Source of the DNA: Streptomyces sp. GC420
Lineage (GTDB): Bacteria; Actinomycetota; Actinomycetes; Streptomycetales; Streptomycetaceae
DNA length: 64,000 nucleotides
Direction of reading: 5' to 3'
Assembly: GCF_009916105.1 (NCBI RefSeq)
Contig: NZ_JAAAXQ010000001.1
Span: 1-64,000, forward strand
Position numbers and translations under genes: made by a program
Shown: positions 16,416-23,403 of the stretch, one piece after another
Layout: each line of letters starts with the position of its first letter
Position numbering within the stretch: position 1 is the first letter of the stretch
Notes under the pieces: model-generated
Databases searched by the model: none
What the model was told of the DNA's origin: nothing
What the model saw: the letters and a program-made list of their open reading frames with translations, nothing else

Positions 16416-17351
16416 TCAGAACTTGCCGCGCGGCCCGTCCGGTGGTCCTCCCGGCCCGGTGAGGTCGTCGTGGCCCATGTGCTCGCCCGGGGTCGACAGC
16501 TCCGTGACGGCGTCGGCGGTCACCACCGCGCCCGTGGACCGCTTGCCGCGCCGCAGCCGGGCTTCCAGCCAGCTCGCGAAGCTGGTGAGGAGGAAGTTCA
16601 GCACGATGAAGATCAACGCGACCACGATGAAGCTGGGAATGACGTTGGCGTAGTTGGCGGCCAGCGTCTTGCGGGCGTTGAGCAGCTCGGTGAAGCTCAG
16701 CATCACACCGCCGAGCGCGGTGTCCTTCACGATGACGACCAGCTGGCTGACGATCGCCGGCAGCATCGCGGTGACGGCCTGCGGCAGCAGGATGCTGGTC
16801 ATCGTCTGGCCCTTGCGCAGACCGATCGCCTTCGCGGCCTCCGACTGGCCGAGGGGCAGCGAGAGGATGCCGGCCCGGACCACCTCGGCGAGGACGGAGG
16901 CGTTGTAGAGCACCAGTCCGGTGACGACCGCGTACATCGGGCGCTGGTCACTGGGGATGTCCGTGGACCTGACGTAGATCTCGTTGGCGAACAGCATCAG
17001 CAGCAGCACCGGGATGGCGCGGAAGAACTCGACGACCGCGCTGGCCGGAACCCTGACCCAGCGGTGGTCGGAGAGCCGGGCGATTCCGAAGACGGCGCCC
17101 AGGGGGAGGGCGATCACCATCGAGAGCGCGGCGGCCTTCAGCGTGTTGCCGAGGCCCGGCAGCAGGTACGTCGTCCACGCCTGGGACTGGGTGAAGGGCT
17201 CCCACAGGGACCAATCCAGCTGGCCCTTGTCGTCCAGGGCTCCCCAGATCCACCACAGCAGCAGGGTGAGCAGGGCGAAGAAGACGACCGAGAGGACGAG
17301 GTTGCGCCGCTTGGCCCGGGGACCGGGGGCGTCGTAGAGAAGGGACGTCAC
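16416..17351 (-). CDS. gluD: Glutamate ABC transporter permease GluD
   Basis: This 311-residue membrane protein is the second permease of the GluABCD glutamate importer. It has an N-terminal membrane segment near residues 18-36. A His/Glu/Gln-type permease domain follows, with the EAA loop EAAKAIGLRKGQTMTSILLPQA that contacts the ATPase, and the RAIPVLLLMLFANEI block. A polar C-terminal tail of about 45 residues follows the last helix. The GTG start at 17351 overlaps the gluC stop by four bases (GTGA), so translation is coupled. It is the last gene of the operon. Confidence 0.93.
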   Translation of the reverse strand: MTSLLYDAPGPRAKRRNLVLSVVFFALLTLLLWWIWGALDDKGQLDWSLWEPFTQSQAWTTYLLPGLGNTLKAAALSMVIALPLGAVFGIARLSDHRWVRVPASAVVEFFRAIPVLLLMLFANEIYVRSTDIPSDQRPMYAVVTGLVLYNASVLAEVVRAGILSLPLGQSEAAKAIGLRKGQTMTSILLPQAVTAMLPAIVSQLVVIVKDTALGGVMLSFTELLNARKTLAANYANVIPSFIVVALIFIVLNFLLTSFASWLEARLRRGKRSTGAVVTADAVTELSTPGEHMGHDDLTGPGGPPDGPRGKF

Positions 17352-18016
17352 CGCTTCACCGCCAGTCGCTTGGCGAGCCAGCCGAGGATCAGACCGGTCG
17401 GCAGGGTCAGTACCACGAATCCGAGGGCGAAGATCGCGGCGATCAGCAGCGTCTGTGCTTCGTTCTCGATCATTTCCTTCATCACCAGGGCCGCTTCCGC
17501 CACTCCGATGGCGGCCGCCACCGTGGTGTTCTTGGTCAGGGCGATCAGCACATTGGCGAGCGGGCCGATGACCGAACGGAACGCCTGCGGCAGCACGATC
17601 AGCGTAAGGACCTGGGAGAAGCTCAGACCGATCGCGCGCGCCGCCTCGGCCTGGCCGACGGGCACGGTGTTGATGCCGGAGCGGATCGCCTCGCAGACGA
17701 AGGCCGCGGTGTAGGCGGACAGGCCCAGGACGGCGAGCCGGAAGCCCTGCGCCTCGAAGTCGTCGGCCGCGCCCAGGGTCACGCCGAAGATGTCGGCGAG
17801 TCCGAGCGAGGTGAAGACGATGATGACGGTCAGAGGGATGTTCCGGACGATGTTCACATAGGCGGTGCCGAATCCGCGCATGAGCGGGACAGGGCTGACC
17901 CGCATGGCGGCCAGCAAGGTGCCCCAGACAAGGGCGCCGATTCCGGAGAGGACGGTGAGTTTCACCGTCACCCAGAAGGCCCCCAGCACGTCGTAATCTT
18001 CAAGAAAGTCGAACAC
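17348..18016 (-). CDS. gluC: Glutamate ABC transporter permease GluC
   Basis: This 222-residue permease pairs with GluD in the inner membrane. It shows the HEQ family features: VRNIPLTVIIVFTSLG in the first half and the EAA loop QAEAARAIGLSFSQVLTLIVLPQA at about residues 122-145. About five hydrophobic helices are visible. GTG 18016 is preceded by GGGAG. It follows gluB after a strong hairpin (18065-18101) that probably lowers permease expression relative to the binding protein. Confidence 0.94.
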   Translation of the reverse strand: MFDFLEDYDVLGAFWVTVKLTVLSGIGALVWGTLLAAMRVSPVPLMRGFGTAYVNIVRNIPLTVIIVFTSLGLADIFGVTLGAADDFEAQGFRLAVLGLSAYTAAFVCEAIRSGINTVPVGQAEAARAIGLSFSQVLTLIVLPQAFRSVIGPLANVLIALTKNTTVAAAIGVAEAALVMKEMIENEAQTLLIAAIFALGFVVLTLPTGLILGWLAKRLAVKR

Positions 18017-18064
18017 GATCTCCCGCGCTTCCGCGTGTGTGGCTTCCGCGTATGTGGAGGGCCG

Positions 18065-18101
18065 GGTGCGCCGCCGTCCTCACGGCGGACGGCGGCGCAC
18101 C
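18065..18101 (-). terminator. Intercistronic hairpin between gluB and gluC
   Basis: A perfect 15-bp stem (GGTGCGCCGCCGTCC and its complement) with a 7-base loop sits just after the gluB stop and before gluC. It has no T-run. In solute-uptake operons this position usually holds a partial terminator or a structure that protects the upstream mRNA. Confidence 0.7.
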
Positions 18102-18115
18102 GGAGTGGCCCGGCG

Positions 18116-18958
18116 TCACTTGACGATGTCGCCGATCTTCGGAGCGGGCTCGTTCTCGTAGCCGGCCGGGCCGAAGTTGTCCTTGACGGCCTTCTCCCAG
18201 GCGCCGTCGCTGACCATCTTCTCCAGCGCGTCGTTCACCTTGTCCACCGTCTCGGTGTCGCCCTTCTTGACACCGATGCCGTAGTTCTCGTTGCTCAGGC
18301 TGAGGCCCGCGAGCTTGAACTTGCCCTTGTACTGGTCCTGCGAGGCGAAGCCCGCGAGGATCGAGTCGTCGGTCGTCACCGCGTCCACGGCGCCGCTGGA
18401 CAGACCGGCGATGCACTCCGAGTACGTGCCGTACTCGCGCAGCTGCGCCTTCGGGGCGATGGAGTCCTTGACGTTCTGCGCCGAGGTCGAACCCGTCACG
18501 GAGCACAGCTTCTTGCCGTTGAGGTCCTCGCCCTTGGCGATGCTCTCGTCGGCGCGGATCAGCAGGTCCTGGTGCGCGAGCAGGTACGGGCCGGCGAAGT
18601 CGACCTTCTGCTTGCGCTCGTCCGTGATCGAGTACGAGGCGGCGATGATCTTGACGTCACCGCGCGACAGGGCGGTCTCGCGGTCGGCGCTCGGGGTCTC
18701 GACCCACTCGATGTCCTTGGCGTCGTAGCCGAGTTCCTCGGCCACGTAGGTCGCCACGTCGACGTCGAAGCCCGAGTACGTGCCGTCCGGCTCCTTCAGG
18801 CCGATGCCCGGCTGGTCGAACTTGATGCCGATCTTGATCTTGTCGCCACCACCGCCGGAACCGGAGCCGCTGTCGCCGTCGTCGGATCCGCAGGCGGTGG
18901 CGGTCAGCGAGAGGACGAGCGCTGCGGCGGCCGCGGCGGTGACCTTGCGAAGCATCAT
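18116..18958 (-). CDS. gluB: Glutamate-binding lipoprotein GluB
   Basis: This 280-residue solute-binding protein presents substrate to GluCD. It starts MMLRKV, followed by a hydrophobic signal and a lipobox ending LTATAC, so it is lipidated outside the membrane. The mature part has the family-3 amino-acid binding fold (DKIKIGIKFDQPGIGLKEPDG, GFDVDVATYVAEELG, then the KVDFAGPYLLAHQDLLIR hinge block). Two ATG codons are adjacent; the first (18958) has AGGGAAG at better spacing. gluA lies 90 bases upstream and gluC follows behind a hairpin. Confidence 0.94.
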   Translation of the reverse strand: MMLRKVTAAAAAALVLSLTATACGSDDGDSGSGSGGGGDKIKIGIKFDQPGIGLKEPDGTYSGFDVDVATYVAEELGYDAKDIEWVETPSADRETALSRGDVKIIAASYSITDERKQKVDFAGPYLLAHQDLLIRADESIAKGEDLNGKKLCSVTGSTSAQNVKDSIAPKAQLREYGTYSECIAGLSSGAVDAVTTDDSILAGFASQDQYKGKFKLAGLSLSNENYGIGVKKGDTETVDKVNDALEKMVSDGAWEKAVKDNFGPAGYENEPAPKIGDIVK

Positions 18959-19048
18959 GATGAACTTCCCTAGGGTTGACGTAATGAGCGTGTCTGCTGA
19001 ACGGGCTCGGTACGCGCACGTCCACGGGGGGACGCGCACGGACCCGGC

Positions 19049-19834
19049 TCAGTGGTGAAGGATCTTCGACAGGAAGTCCTTGGCGCGGTCGCTGCGGGGG
19101 TTGCTGAAGAACTGGTCGGGAGTCGCTTCCTCCACGATCCGCCCGTCGGCCATGAAGACGACACGGTTCGCGGCCGATCGGGCAAAGCCCATCTCGTGCG
19201 TGACGACGACCATCGTCATCCCGTCCCGGGCGAGCTGCTGCATGACCTCCAGCACCTCATTGATCATCTCCGGGTCGAGTGCCGAGGTCGGCTCGTCGAA
19301 CAGCATGACCTTCGGGTCCATGGCCAGTGCCCTGGCGATTGCCACCCGCTGCTGCTGGCCGCCGGAGAGCTGGGCCGGGTACTTGTCGGCCTGCGTGGCG
19401 ACACCCACCCGGTCGAGCAGGTTGCGGGCCTGCTCCTCGGCCGCCTTCTTGTCCTTCTTGCGGACCTTGACCTGTCCCAGTACGACGTTCTCCAGGACGG
19501 TCTTGTGCGCGAAGAGGTTGAAGGACTGGAAGACCATGCCGACGTCCGCGCGCAGCCTGGCCAGCTCACGCCCCTCCGCGGGCAGCGGCTTGCCGTCGAT
19601 CGTGATCTCGCCGGAGTCGACGCCCTCCAGCCGGTTGATGGTGCGGCACAGCGTGGACTTTCCGGACCCCGAGGGCCCGATCACGACGACGACCTCGCCG
19701 CGGGCGATGGTCAGGTCGATGTCCTGGAGCACATGCAGCGCGCCGAAGTGCTTGTTGACGTTGTTCAGCACGACCAGGGCGTCGGCGGCTGCGGGGGCCG
19801 GCACGGCATCCTTCGTCACTGATACTCCGCTCAT
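19049..19834 (-). CDS. gluA: Glutamate ABC transporter ATP-binding protein GluA
   Basis: This 261-residue ATPase drives glutamate import. Walker A is GPSGSGKST, the Q-loop is [13 protein letters not shown], the signature is LSGGQQQR, and Walker B is [13 protein letters not shown] followed by the H-loop THEMGFAR. It is the first gene of gluABCD. The ATG at 19834 gives [10 protein letters not shown]; a GTG at 19819 (VTKDA) with GGAG five bases upstream is an equally reasonable start. A promoter is likely in 19840-19930, where the minus strand holds TTATGC and TAATGA 18 bases apart. Confidence 0.94.
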
Positions 19835-19884: not shown

Positions 19885-20121
19885 GCGACCAGCGTCATTA
19901 CATCTGAGCGGAAATTGAGCATAACGATCTGGCTGCATCCCGACACTCTGCGTGAACAGGACCGGCCCCGGCGTACCGTGTCGATAACGGAAACCTCGCG
20001 GAAACAGAGAACGTCTTGACTGTGCGGCCGGACATCCGGGTGGATTCCCTGGTACACCCGCACGACACCCGCACACGCACACACGACTTACGCCGCCACG
20101 AGCGAGACCGGAGGGAGGCCC

Positions 20122-20814
20122 ATGAGACTTCTGCTCGTCGAGGACGACAACCATGTCGCCGCGGCCCTGTCCGCCGTGCTTGCAAGACACGGCTTCGACG
20201 TCACCCACGCCCGCAGCGGCGAGGAGGCGCTGCAGGCCCTGCTGCCCACCGACCGCGCGCCCTTCGGGGTGGTGCTCCTCGACCTCGGCCTGCCCGACCA
20301 GGACGGCTACGAGGTCTGCGGAAAGATCCGCAAGCGCACCAGCACCCCCGTGATCATGGTGACCGCCCGCTCCGACGTGCGCTCGCGCATCCACGGTCTC
20401 AACCTCGGCGCCGACGACTACGTGGTCAAGCCCTATGACACCGGCGAACTGCTCGCCCGCATCCACGCCGTCGCCCGGCGCACCGTGAGCGGCGAGGAGG
20501 CCGGCCAGGCCGCCGAGAGCGAGCTGCGGTTCGGCGCGGTCAGCGTCGAACTGCCCACCCGGCGGGTGCTGGTCGACGGCACCGCGGTCCAGCTGACCCG
20601 CAAGGAGTTCGACCTGCTGGCGCTGCTCGCCCAGCGCCCCGGTGTGGTCTTCCGCCGGGAACAGATCATCAGCGAGGTGTGGCGCACCAGCTGGGAGGGC
20701 ACCGGGCGCACCCTGGAGGTGCATGTCGCCTCGCTGCGCTCCAAGCTGCGCATGCCCGACCTGATCGAGACCGTCCGCGGCGTCGGCTACCGGCTCGTCG
20801 CCCCGCCCGGCTGA
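20122..20814 (+). CDS. OmpR/PhoB-family response regulator
   Basis: The 230-residue regulator has a receiver domain (residues 1-115) with acidic pocket E7-D8-D9, phospho-acceptor D54 in LLDLGLPD, the T of VTARSD and the K of VVKPYD. A winged-helix DNA-binding domain follows (LTRKEFDLLALLAQRPGVVFRREQI, TLEVHVASLRSKL, IETVRGVGYRL). GGAGGGAGG precedes the ATG at good distance. The sensor kinase gene follows 33 bases downstream, so they form one two-component system. It is divergent from gluA, and gluA control is possible but not shown. Confidence 0.95.
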   Translation: MRLLLVEDDNHVAAALSAVLARHGFDVTHARSGEEALQALLPTDRAPFGVVLLDLGLPDQDGYEVCGKIRKRTSTPVIMVTARSDVRSRIHGLNLGADDYVVKPYDTGELLARIHAVARRTVSGEEAGQAAESELRFGAVSVELPTRRVLVDGTAVQLTRKEFDLLALLAQRPGVVFRREQIISEVWRTSWEGTGRTLEVHVASLRSKLRMPDLIETVRGVGYRLVAPPG

Positions 20815-20834
20815 ACCGCGCTCCCCTCCTGAAG

Positions 20835-20840
20835 TACCCT
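20835..20840 (+). promoter_or_regulatory. -10 element (TACCCT) at leaderless spacing to the kinase start
   Basis: TACCCT fits TANNNT and ends 7 bases before GTG 20848. The kinase may thus have its own leaderless promoter besides readthrough from the regulator gene. Confidence 0.4.
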
Positions 20841-20847
20841 CCCTGAG

Positions 20848-22269
20848 GTGCGCACCCGCCTGCTCCCCCTGCTGATCGTCCTCATGGCGGGCGTTCTCCT
20901 GGCGCTCGGCTTCCCGCTCGCCGTGAGCTTCGCGGCCGCCGAACAGCAGGAGGTCGTCGTCGACCGGATCGACGACACCGCGCGCTTCGCGGCCCTCGCC
21001 CTCACCGAGACACCGGCCTCCGGGTCCGCCCCCTCCGGCACCACCGGGCGCGACGACGACCGGCGCGGCCCGCTCTCGGAGGACCTGAAGCGCTACCACG
21101 CGGTGTACGGCATCAAGGCGGGCGTCTTCTACCGCAATCGCGAGGCCCTGGCCGCGGCACCGGAGGACTGGACGGTGCCCGGCAGCGGCGACGCCGACGA
21201 AGCCTTCCGGGAGGCGCTGGCCAGCCGCCGCAGCCACGACCCCGAGCAGGTCTGGCCCTGGCAGCGCAACGGACGGCTCGTCGTCGCCTCCCCGGTCGTC
21301 AGGGACGGTGACGTCATAGCCGTCGTCCTCACCGACTCGCCCACCGGGCAACTGCGTTCCCGCATCCTGCGCGGCTGGCTGCTCATCGGCGCCGGGGAGG
21401 CCGCCGCGATGCTGCTGGCCGTGGGGCTGGCGTTCCGGCTCACCGGCTGGGTGCTGCGCCCGGTTCGCATCCTGGACGCCGCAACCCACGACATCGCGAC
21501 CGGCCGGATGAACTCCAGGGTCGCGGCCTCCGGCGGTCCGCCGGAACTCAGGCGGCTCGCCCGCTCGTTCAACGAGATGGCCGACAACGTCGAGGAAGTG
21601 CTCGAACAGCAGCGGGCGTTCGTCGCGGACGCCTCCCACCAGCTGCGCAATCCGCTGGCCGCGCTGCTGCTGCGCATCGAGCTGCTCGCCCTGGAACTCC
21701 CCGAGGGCAACGAGGAGATCGCCTCCGTGCGCACCGAGGGCAAGCGCCTGGCCCAGGTGCTCGACGACCTGCTCGACCTCGCGCTCGCCGAGCACGCCCC
21801 CGCCGACCTCAAAGTCACCGACATCGGGGCCCTCACCGCGGAACGCATCGCCGCCTGGAGTCCCGTCGCGCAGGACAAGGGGGTCCGGCTCACCGCCTCG
21901 GGCGCCGCGGCCACGACGGCCTGGGCGGACCCGGTGGCCCTCTCCAGCGCCCTGGACGCCGTCATCGACAACGCCGTGAAGTTCACGGCCCCCGGAGAGT
22001 CCGTCGAGGTCCGCGTCGCCGCCGACGGCGACACCTCGACCATCACCGTCACGGACCTCGGCCCCGGCCTGAGTGCGGAGGAACTCGAACGCATCGGTGA
22101 CCGCTTCTGGCGCAGCAGCCGGCACCAGAACGTAAGGGGCTCGGGACTGGGCCTGTCCATCTCCCGCGCGCTGCTGGCCGCGGGCGGGGGCTCGATCTCG
22201 TACGCCGCGCACGAGCCGCACGGGCTGAGGGTGACCGTCACCGTGCCGCGGACCGGCCCCGGGACCTGA
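20848..22269 (+). CDS. Sensor histidine kinase
   Basis: This 473-residue membrane kinase is the partner of the response regulator just upstream. It has a first membrane segment at residues 5-30, an extracytoplasmic sensing loop of about 140 residues (32-172), a second membrane segment at 176-197 and a HAMP linker (RPVRILDAATHDIATGRM). The DHp helix (FVADASHQLRNPLAALL) carries phospho-acceptor His264. The HATPase domain has the N box (DNAVKF), G1 (DLGPGL) and G2 (GSGLGLSIS). The loop is large enough for a Cache-like sensor. A TAXI solute-binding protein gene faces it and could supply the signal. Confidence 0.94.
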   Translation: MRTRLLPLLIVLMAGVLLALGFPLAVSFAAAEQQEVVVDRIDDTARFAALALTETPASGSAPSGTTGRDDDRRGPLSEDLKRYHAVYGIKAGVFYRNREALAAAPEDWTVPGSGDADEAFREALASRRSHDPEQVWPWQRNGRLVVASPVVRDGDVIAVVLTDSPTGQLRSRILRGWLLIGAGEAAAMLLAVGLAFRLTGWVLRPVRILDAATHDIATGRMNSRVAASGGPPELRRLARSFNEMADNVEEVLEQQRAFVADASHQLRNPLAALLLRIELLALELPEGNEEIASVRTEGKRLAQVLDDLLDLALAEHAPADLKVTDIGALTAERIAAWSPVAQDKGVRLTASGAAATTAWADPVALSSALDAVIDNAVKFTAPGESVEVRVAADGDTSTITVTDLGPGLSAEELERIGDRFWRSSRHQNVRGSGLGLSISRALLAAGGGSISYAAHEPHGLRVTVTVPRTGPGT

Positions 22270-22302
22270 CGGCCGCCCGGCAGGCCCGGTGCGCCGTGCC
22301 GA

Positions 22303-22320
22303 CCCGGCGGGCGCGCCGGG
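22303..22320. terminator. Hairpin between convergent kinase and TAXI genes
   Basis: CCCGGCG/CGCCGGG forms a 7-bp stem with a four-base loop in the 144-base convergent gap. The same gap holds an imperfect direct repeat (CGCGGGCACGGG, twice). Confidence 0.45.
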
Positions 22321-22413
22321 CAGACCCCGCGGGCACGGGCACGAGCCCCGGGGACAGGAGGCCGGACAGTCCCGCGGGCACGGGGAGCGGCCGTGAGGGC
22401 TCGTCAGGGCTCC

Positions 22414-23403
22414 TCAGGGCTTGACCGAGCGGTAGTACCGCTCCGCCCCCTTGTGCAGCTCCAGCGGATCCGTGTAGATCGCCGTGCGCAGATCCACCAG
22501 CTGGGCCGCGTGCACCTCGCGGCCGATCGAGTCGCGGTTCTCTATCACCGTCCGGGTCACCCCCTCGGTGAGGTTCTCGTCCGTGCGGTCCGTCGTCAGC
22601 AGCAGGTTGGGCACCGCGACGGACGAGACCTCGGCCGCTTCCGCGACGTTCCTGTAGGCGTCCGCGGGGATCACGGCGGAGCGGTAGTCGGCGGTGTCGC
22701 GCTGGCTCTGCAGCCCGGAGACAAGGTCGCCCAGGGGAACCAGCCGGATCGGGATCTCCTCCGAGAGCTTGCTGACCTTGTCGGTGGGCAGTCCGCCCGA
22801 CCAGAAGAACGCGTCGATCTCCCCGTCGGCCAGCTTCTTCGGCATCGTGTCGATCCCTATGAGGTGCGGCTCGATGTCCTTGCGGGGATCGATGTCGGCG
22901 GCCTTCAGCAGCCGGTCCGCGATCAGCTTCACCCCGGAGTTCGCCTGGCCCAGTGCCACCCGCTTCCCACGCAGGTCCGCGGGCTCGCGGATGCCGGAGC
23001 CCGCGCGCACGACCAGCTGCATGTAGTCGTCGTACAGCCGGGCACAGGCGCGCAGCCGGGAGCCGGCCTCGGGGTGCTCCGTCACGTAGGCGGCGACGGC
23101 GTCCGCGGCCGCCACGGCGAAGTCGGCCCTGCCGGAGACCAGCCGCTCGATGTTGTCCGGCGAGCCGTGGCTGTTGACCAGCCGCACCTCCACATCGGGC
23201 AGCTCGTCGGCCATGCGCTGCTGGAGCTTCTTGCCGTACAGCTCGTAGACCCCGCCCCTGACGCCCGTCGCGAAGGTCACCTCGCCCCCGGGCGAGGGCC
23301 GGCCCTCGCCGCGCAGGGCCCACCACAGCAGCAGCGCAAGCGCCACCAGCGCCGCGCCCACGGCGAGCCGTGCCCGCCTGCTCCTGGGAATCGCCGTCAC
23401 CAC
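22414..23403 (-). CDS. TAXI-family TRAP-type solute-binding protein
   Basis: This 329-residue protein binds a small carboxylate-like ligand outside the membrane. It has one N-terminal membrane segment (residues 12-30) and no lipobox, so it may stay anchored. TAXI features are [57 protein letters not shown] and [14 protein letters not shown]. No TRAP permease (DctQM-like) gene is adjacent. Orphan TAXI proteins beside sensor kinases are known and can act as ligand receptors for them. Here the gene converges on the kinase gene. GTG 23403 is used as the start. Confidence 0.9.

Follow-up and report, generated by a model that had tools for sequence, protein, structure and literature searches.

A TAXI-family binding protein gene convergent with a GluR-GluK-like pair in Streptomyces sp. 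GC420: a candidate three-part nutrient sensor

We analysed the first 64,000 nucleotides of contig NZ_JAAAXQ010000001.1 of Streptomyces sp. GC420 (NCBI RefSeq assembly GCF_009916105.1), here called the window. The subject of this study is a block of three genes in the window, encoding an OmpR-family response regulator, a sensor histidine kinase and a solute-binding protein of the TAXI family (Table 1). The kinase and TAXI genes converge, with their stop codons 144 bases apart. Upstream of the regulator gene and divergent from it lies a four-gene amino-acid ABC transporter operon (16416-19834), which by gene order corresponds to gluABCD, and the next gene beyond the TAXI gene is miaB. A preliminary description of this DNA, made from its letters alone, had read the block as a regulator-kinase pair followed by a convergent TAXI gene. 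The coordinates, strands and family matches agreed with that reading.

Table 1. Genes and features at the locus, with positions in the window.
Feature	Position	Strand	Evidence
Response regulator, GluR-like, OmpR-family	20122-20814	+	Response_reg 93.6 bits, Trans_reg_C 90.5 bits
GluK-like sensor histidine kinase	20848-22269	+	Two transmembrane helices, outer loop of ~140 residues, HAMP, HisKA, HATPase_c
TAXI-family binding protein	22414-23403	-	TIGR02122 252.6 bits (cut-off 84.35); PF16868 159.5 bits (cut-off 27)
gluA-like ABC transporter ATPase	19049-19834	-	ABC_tran; GlnQ is the top NCBIfam match, 333 bits, under the model cut-off of 379
gluB-like binding protein of the ABC transporter	18116-19039	-	SBP_bac_3 100 bits; lipobox-like LTATAC in the sequence
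gluC-like permease	17348-18016	-	BPD_transp_1
gluD-like permease	16416-17351	-	BPD_transp_1
Conserved gluA-gluR intergenic block, candidate GluR box	19890-19940		Direct repeat CTGAGC-GGAAA-TTGAGC at 19904-19920

The window protein belongs to the TAXI family both by the model cut-offs and by its fold. Its structural model (predicted local distance difference test score, pLDDT, 88.8) gave six best matches in the PDB that were all of TAXI type, with Z between 30.4 and 33.5. An unbroken N-terminal helix spans residues 7-31 of the model and no lipobox was found in the sequence, which bears out the uncleaved-looking anchor noted before. The extracytoplasmic loop of about 140 residues that had been described for the kinase was likewise recovered, as the model helices 2-54 and 167-217 flank a sensor region at approximately residues 74-165 (pLDDT 70). 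Judged by secondary structure this region reads as a small, PAS/PDC-like domain; the structural matches to the kinase model were all taken by the kinase core. Among 70 kinases from regulator-kinase-TAXI loci, hereafter triads, the outer loop measured 121-144 residues in 69, and P137, W138 and P149 were invariant in all.

On sequence grounds we treat the regulator and kinase as GluR-GluK, because the gene order agrees and because primers published for gluR of S. alboflavus fit the corresponding regulator gene in that species. A review describes GluK/R of S. coelicolor (SCO5779/SCO5778) as controlling the adjacent gluABCD (SCO5774-SCO5777) at high glutamate (PMC9739842, section 3.17). The likeness to that system, which extends to gene order and protein families, was taken from its published description; the link by sequence runs through S. 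alboflavus. The two primers for S. alboflavus gluR (PMC12839944, table 1) match the regulator gene of S. alboflavus NRRL B-2373 exactly, and one of them matches the window regulator at 20389-20407 with 1 mismatch. As in the published system, the window contains an OmpR-type regulator and a HAMP/HisKA kinase divergent from gluABCD. The search term SCO5780, which we take to be the locus tag of the S. coelicolor TAXI gene, gave no match in the open-licence literature.

The account of GluR-GluK in PMC9739842 calls it a two-component system and mentions no third component. The statement in the preliminary description that ligand and targets are not known therefore fails for the pair, since GluR-GluK is a reported regulator of gluABCD that responds to glutamate; it stands for the TAXI protein, which is absent from the accounts consulted. 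The same review reports that GluK does not recognise glutamine and that the GluR-GluK switch also affects antibiotic output. In S. alboflavus, by contrast with GluK being blind to glutamine, gluR was strongly induced by glutamine according to a 2026 paper (PMC12839944). The wider ligand range of a binding protein could reconcile the two observations.

The alignment of 66 gluA-gluR intergenic regions revealed that the block listed in Table 1 is strongly conserved. The motif TGAGC-N6-TGAGC was exact in 42 of the 66 regions, and the direct repeat in the block was the sole match in the window at no more than 1 mismatch. Such a spacing of repeats is usual for OmpR-type regulators. We regard the conserved repeat as a candidate GluR site.

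Within the order of the source organism a TAXI protein above the curated cut-off was found in 378 of 391 genomes, and in 28 of the 30 top-scoring of these a GluK-like kinase gene lay beside the TAXI gene. A closer comparison was made on the best 80 of at least 548 named Streptomyces loci. The whole order gluDCBA-regulator-kinase-TAXI-miaB was present in 53 of the 80. The kinase was at most 600 bases from the TAXI gene in 58 loci, convergent in every one, and 0.7-6.4 kb away in 15; it was not seen in the remaining 7, where the stretch beyond the TAXI gene spanned 8 kb in 5, 6.8 kb in 1 and 400 bases in 1. From these counts we concluded that the linkage in Streptomyces is strong, though other genes can come to lie between the two. 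Such insertions, 2.2-6.4 kb long, separated the TAXI gene from gluK in 14 of the 80 loci, and the insert in L038 carries a further regulator-kinase pair (30-36% identity). The transporter genes of this set also varied: gluA is nearly constant (85-92% identical across loci L032-L111), whereas gluB, gluC and gluD are of two types. For gluB, 25 of 64 loci have a window-like protein (at least 55% identical) and 39 have one below 50% identity at the same position. The type of gluB/C/D was not obviously tracked by the sensor genes.

The linkage was then followed beyond Streptomyces with a profile of 12 TAXIs from the locus. Of the 246 genomes of the class that were searched, 79 contained a hit at E≤1e-20. 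We examined 80 regions around the higher-ranking hits, including 2 second Streptomyces copies. A GluR/GluK-like pair accompanied the TAXI in 62 of the 80, in one case with the kinase 10.6 kb off. In the other 18 the TAXI lay with a DctQM permease, except for one region with neither permease nor pair. As a control, a kinase match was found in only 1 of these 18 regions, 2.5 kb off and outside the GluK branch. When single genes were labelled by script, leaving out TAXI pieces below 700 bases, 58 TAXIs counted as neighbours of a kinase gene, 37 of them convergent with it and 21 co-directional; 29 were next to a permease gene and 7 next to neither. The 58 included the second TAXI of two TRAP operons (L158 at 10488, L160 at 9515), and these two were shifted to the permease set before tree building.

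Because these TAXI loci had been picked by likeness to Streptomyces TAXIs, we also searched from the kinase side. This gave 74 GluK-like kinases (E≤1e-65) in 57 of the 246 genomes. A TAXI gene lay within 500 bases of 57 of the 74, within 3 kb of 69 and within 6 kb of 72; of the two exceptions, one kinase is on a contig of 6,660 bases and the other is 10.6 kb from its TAXI. For this kinase group it is thus the rule that a binding-protein gene of its own accompanies kinase and regulator, as a three-part sensor demands. Outside the family of Streptomyces, 47 of 49 pairs were within 3 kb, 33 of them convergent and 14 co-directional, and so the linkage is not the relic of one frozen chromosome stretch.

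Further records pointed the same way. Among 14 genomes from another family of the same order, 12 lacked both a TAXI (E≤1e-10) and any kinase scoring more than 195 bits, and the other 2 had both a TAXI and a kinase of about 400 bits. One further genome (G002) of the 18 in this comparison had a TAXI with an adjacent DctM gene and no kinase above 119 bits, as expected of a transport-type TAXI. A TAXI match was present in 51 plasmid records, and in the 4 that were examined the kinase and regulator genes lay beside it. On the Streptomyces plasmid NZ_CP108555.1, annotated independently, the TAXI gene is convergent with kinase and regulator, followed by a fused TRAP permease with a TAXI of its own. 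Triads were also found in records of Nonomuraea gerenzanensis and Arthrobacter sp. StoSoilB13.

The phylogenetic tree of the TAXI proteins comprised 108 rows: 68 TAXIs linked to kinases, 31 linked to permeases, 7 without a label and 2 solved glutamate TAXIs. A single branch separates the kinase-linked from the permease-linked proteins (one change, support 100/98), a number of changes as low as which was reached in 0 of 500 shuffles. The solved proteins, VcGluP and TtGluBP, fall on the permease side. The 70 triad kinases likewise formed one side of a branch when compared by a quick method with 21 other kinases of the source genome and 2 control kinases (SH-like approximate likelihood ratio test 98). 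In a FastTree analysis three weaker GluK-like kinases with no TAXI in their stretch (L273, L276, L277) fell outside the triad branch; inside it fell six kinases whose loci either carry a TAXI or are cut off by a contig end. The second-best GluK-like kinase of the source genome (L223, contig C12:7828-8910) clusters with three kinases from other genomes that lack a TAXI; the cluster lies next to the TAXI-linked branch but outside it.

The distances among the TAXI proteins and among their kinases were closely correlated over 57 pairs (r 0.94, or 0.90 when only the outer part of the kinase was used). Nine genomes hold 2 or 3 triads, and in these the true TAXI-kinase pairing was the best of 4608 within-genome pairings, a comparison that holds species history fixed. 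Because the true pairing tops all of these re-pairings, the sequences indicate that the TAXI-kinase pair duplicates and diverges as a unit.

No TRAP permease gene is present at the locus, as the preliminary description had observed, and a genome-wide search for DctM, fixed beforehand as a result that could overturn its proposal, was also empty. The source genome (8.6 Mb in 854 contigs, rated 100% complete) gave 0 DctM matches, and the same search was positive in 7 of 14 control genomes; for the symporter GltS there were again 0 matches, with 2 of 14 control genomes positive. One PF16868 protein was found in the genome, and the broader TIGR02122 model gave 2 matches at E≤0.001. With neither a DctM nor a GltS partner found in the genome, the window protein fits neither the TAXI-TRAP nor the TAXI-GltS type of transporter. 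We also considered that the TAXI gene might be what remains of a TRAP operon that was lost, and rejected this, because the kinase-linked TAXIs make up a separate conserved branch.

The transporters beside the triads differ from locus to locus. Leaving aside the main Streptomyces locus, 43 of the 62 triad regions had a recognisable transporter for carboxylates or amino acids nearby: gluABCD in 10, DctQM TRAP in 12, DASS in 11, TctA in 6 and SDF (DctA/GltP-type) in 4. DctM was confirmed by Pfam in five loci (L158, L160, L165, L175, L246) and SDF in one (L179), the others being assigned by similarity. The remaining 19 regions had no assigned transporter among the open reading frames scanned, several of them only MFS, EamA or ABC-2 proteins. 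Regulator, kinase and TAXI are thus the constant unit, and the transporter is exchangeable among five families (ABC, TRAP, DASS, SDF, TctA). Many of these transporters come with a binding protein of their own: a second TAXI was present in 12 of 12 TRAP triad loci and TctC in 4 of 4 scanned TctA loci, and gluABCD has GluB. For DASS and SDF symporters we know of no binding protein that is needed. Six triads of one family (f20) had no recognised carboxylate transporter nearby, and an ABC-2 type membrane protein adjoins the two that were scanned (L189, L191). The signal of the f20 triads may differ from that of the others.

For the ligand pocket we compared the TAXI proteins with VcGluP, in which two residues are essential for glutamate (Y45 and Q93) and the side chain of E125 touches the amino group of the ligand (PMC11574862). 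The tyrosine is kept in the window protein as Y53, and the 68 kinase-linked rows have 60 tyrosines and 8 phenylalanines at this position; S75 of VcGluP is kept in 66 of the 68. Position 125 was acidic in 22 of 22 rows linked to gluABCD. All 21 rows with a DASS, TctA or SDF transporter combine serine at 125 with arginine at 46, and the 11 TRAP-linked triad rows had N in 6, E in 2, S in 2 and D in 1 at position 125. This pattern suggests a division between amino-acid and plain carboxylate ligands, though the match of pocket to transporter comes near to a single evolutionary contrast, because each set sits in one clade of the TAXI tree.

The membrane anchor was compared in the same proteins. All 31 TRAP-linked TAXIs have a lipobox. 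By script it was found in 42 of 61 kinase-linked TAXIs, 18 having none and 1 being too short, and in six of the 18 (L161, L162, L180, L185, L213, L217) a lipobox was seen by eye where the script had cut too early. The Streptomyces TAXIs (34 rows) have a lipobox in 1 and a conserved L-WW helix in 33, and a few further groups are likewise devoid of the lipobox. Lipid and helix tethers interchange, and tethering is common to both TAXI branches. We therefore ruled out the anchor as a mark of sensing, the TRAP-linked proteins being tethered as well.

Taking these results together, we think it likely that the block is a three-part nutrient sensor, in which the TAXI protein is a ligand-carrying co-receptor of GluK and acts through GluR on gluABCD. 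The N-terminal helix would hold the TAXI protein at the outer face of the membrane, where it would enclose a small carboxylate or an amino acid; for the window protein the most likely ligand is glutamate or a compound close to it. The closed, loaded protein would then contact the outer sensor region of GluK and switch the kinase, and phosphate would pass from GluK to GluR, which would act on the divergent uptake operon. The TAXI protein would have no part in transport, since gluABCD has GluB as its own binding protein. Because its relatives, in many actinobacteria, adjoin the same kinase family whatever the transporter, the TAXI protein is probably what captures the signal. The co-receptor without transport role that had been proposed in the preliminary description thus has strong comparative support; the contact with GluK, and with it the identity of the ligand, the direction of the effect and the need for the TAXI protein in signalling, we infer.

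Several observations weigh against this interpretation. Binding of glutamate to GluK was measured by biolayer interferometry in a 2017 paper, as told in PMC9739842, and if the kinase binds glutamate itself the TAXI protein might be dispensable. It may, then, assist direct sensing by GluK and not replace it. The essential Q93 of VcGluP is alanine in the window protein, and across the 68 kinase-linked rows this position holds A in 20, L in 18, S in 15 and Q in 6. The repeat search of the window, at no more than 1 mismatch, found no candidate GluR box before the TAXI gene. The TAXI loci were sampled by likeness to the Streptomyces proteins, and only part of the matches was examined. Loss of linkage in relatives, which had been named beforehand as a finding that would speak against the proposal, was seen to a weak degree: the kinase was not within 600 bases in 22 of the 80 Streptomyces loci, 5 of them having no kinase in 8 kb, yet the linkage recurs far outside Streptomyces and in both orientations. 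One Streptomyces genome (G284) has the kinase and no TAXI, a case that is not decisive because its contig stops 2 bases past the kinase match.

A transport role was weighed as an alternative: the TAXI protein could supply substrate to the adjacent transporter as an additional binding protein, with the kinase only regulating that transporter. A TAXI protein that works with the non-TRAP symporter GltS has been published for Bordetella pertussis (PMC12344293), and a suitable transporter stands near most triads. The DASS and SDF symporters stand beside triads with no recognised binding protein of their own, and there the TAXI protein may have such a role. The gluABCD, TRAP and scanned TctA loci, however, are served by their own binding proteins, TAXI and kinase match as units while the transporter family varies, and both GltS and DctM are missing from the matches in the source genome. 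We consider this explanation improbable.

With about the same low probability, GluK senses glutamate directly and the TAXI protein only tunes it, either by sharpening its affinity or by holding the kinase off until a ligand frees it. The reported binding of glutamate to GluK (PMC9739842) favours this, as does the folded outer region of the kinase with its three invariant residues. Direct sensing is nevertheless compatible with a TAXI-kinase complex, and so we see tuning as a variant of the three-part sensor. That the neighbourhood is merely an inherited gene order with no functional link is very improbable: the long-conserved gluDCBA-regulator-kinase-TAXI-miaB order would by itself give adjacency, but triads persist with altered orientation, with different neighbours, on a plasmid and as paralogous copies, and the true pairing ranked 1st in the re-pairing test.

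Sensors made of a binding protein, a kinase and a regulator are already known. In the AioX-AioS-AioR and ArrX systems, too, a kinase and its regulator are served by a binding protein of their own (PMC5908839), and ArrX was among the structural matches of the window TAXI (Z 15.4-15.9). These proteins differ in belonging to a PhnD-like family and not to TAXI, in binding arsenic oxyanions and in controlling a respiratory enzyme. In the BctC-BctE-BctD system of B. pertussis a carboxylate binding protein acts on the kinase that controls a carboxylate transporter (PMC5812351). BctC, however, doubles as the TctC protein of the transporter itself, whereas the window TAXI is separate from the transporter. 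VcGluP and TtGluBP share family and fold with the window protein (Z 30.4-30.9) as well as the pocket tyrosine; VcGluP, though, serves a TRAP transporter (PMC11574862), lies on the other side of the TAXI tree and has a pocket glutamine that is replaced here. The TAXI-GltS system of B. pertussis also lacks a TRAP permease, but its partner GltS was not found in the source genome. A search of the open-licence literature, mostly at the level of titles and abstracts, gave no description of an actinobacterial TAXI-kinase unit. By that measure a TAXI branch devoted to sensing, which keeps to a single branch of kinases and moves among five families of transporter, appears new.

On a broader scale, and with somewhat less assurance than for the block itself, we lean towards the view that the Actinomycetes possess a dedicated sensory branch of TAXI proteins. 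Together with one kinase branch and a regulator it would form a portable sensor of carboxylates and amino acids, reused with unrelated transporters and joined in turn to ABC, TRAP, DASS, SDF and TctABC systems. The pocket would then tell the ligand, by an acidic residue at the position of E125 of VcGluP in the gluABCD-linked members as against serine there with R46 in those linked to DASS, TctA and SDF, and GluR-GluK would be a three-component system whose primary receptor was overlooked.

By one published count, only about 10 systems in which a binding protein acts upon a sensor kinase have been characterised (PMC9602780). If the interpretation is true, a whole branch would be added to these few, with natural variation in both transporter and pocket, and many unstudied actinobacterial kinases would gain a predictable class of signal. 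The glutamate switch of Streptomyces, with its reported effect on antibiotic output, would then have a missing receptor subunit.

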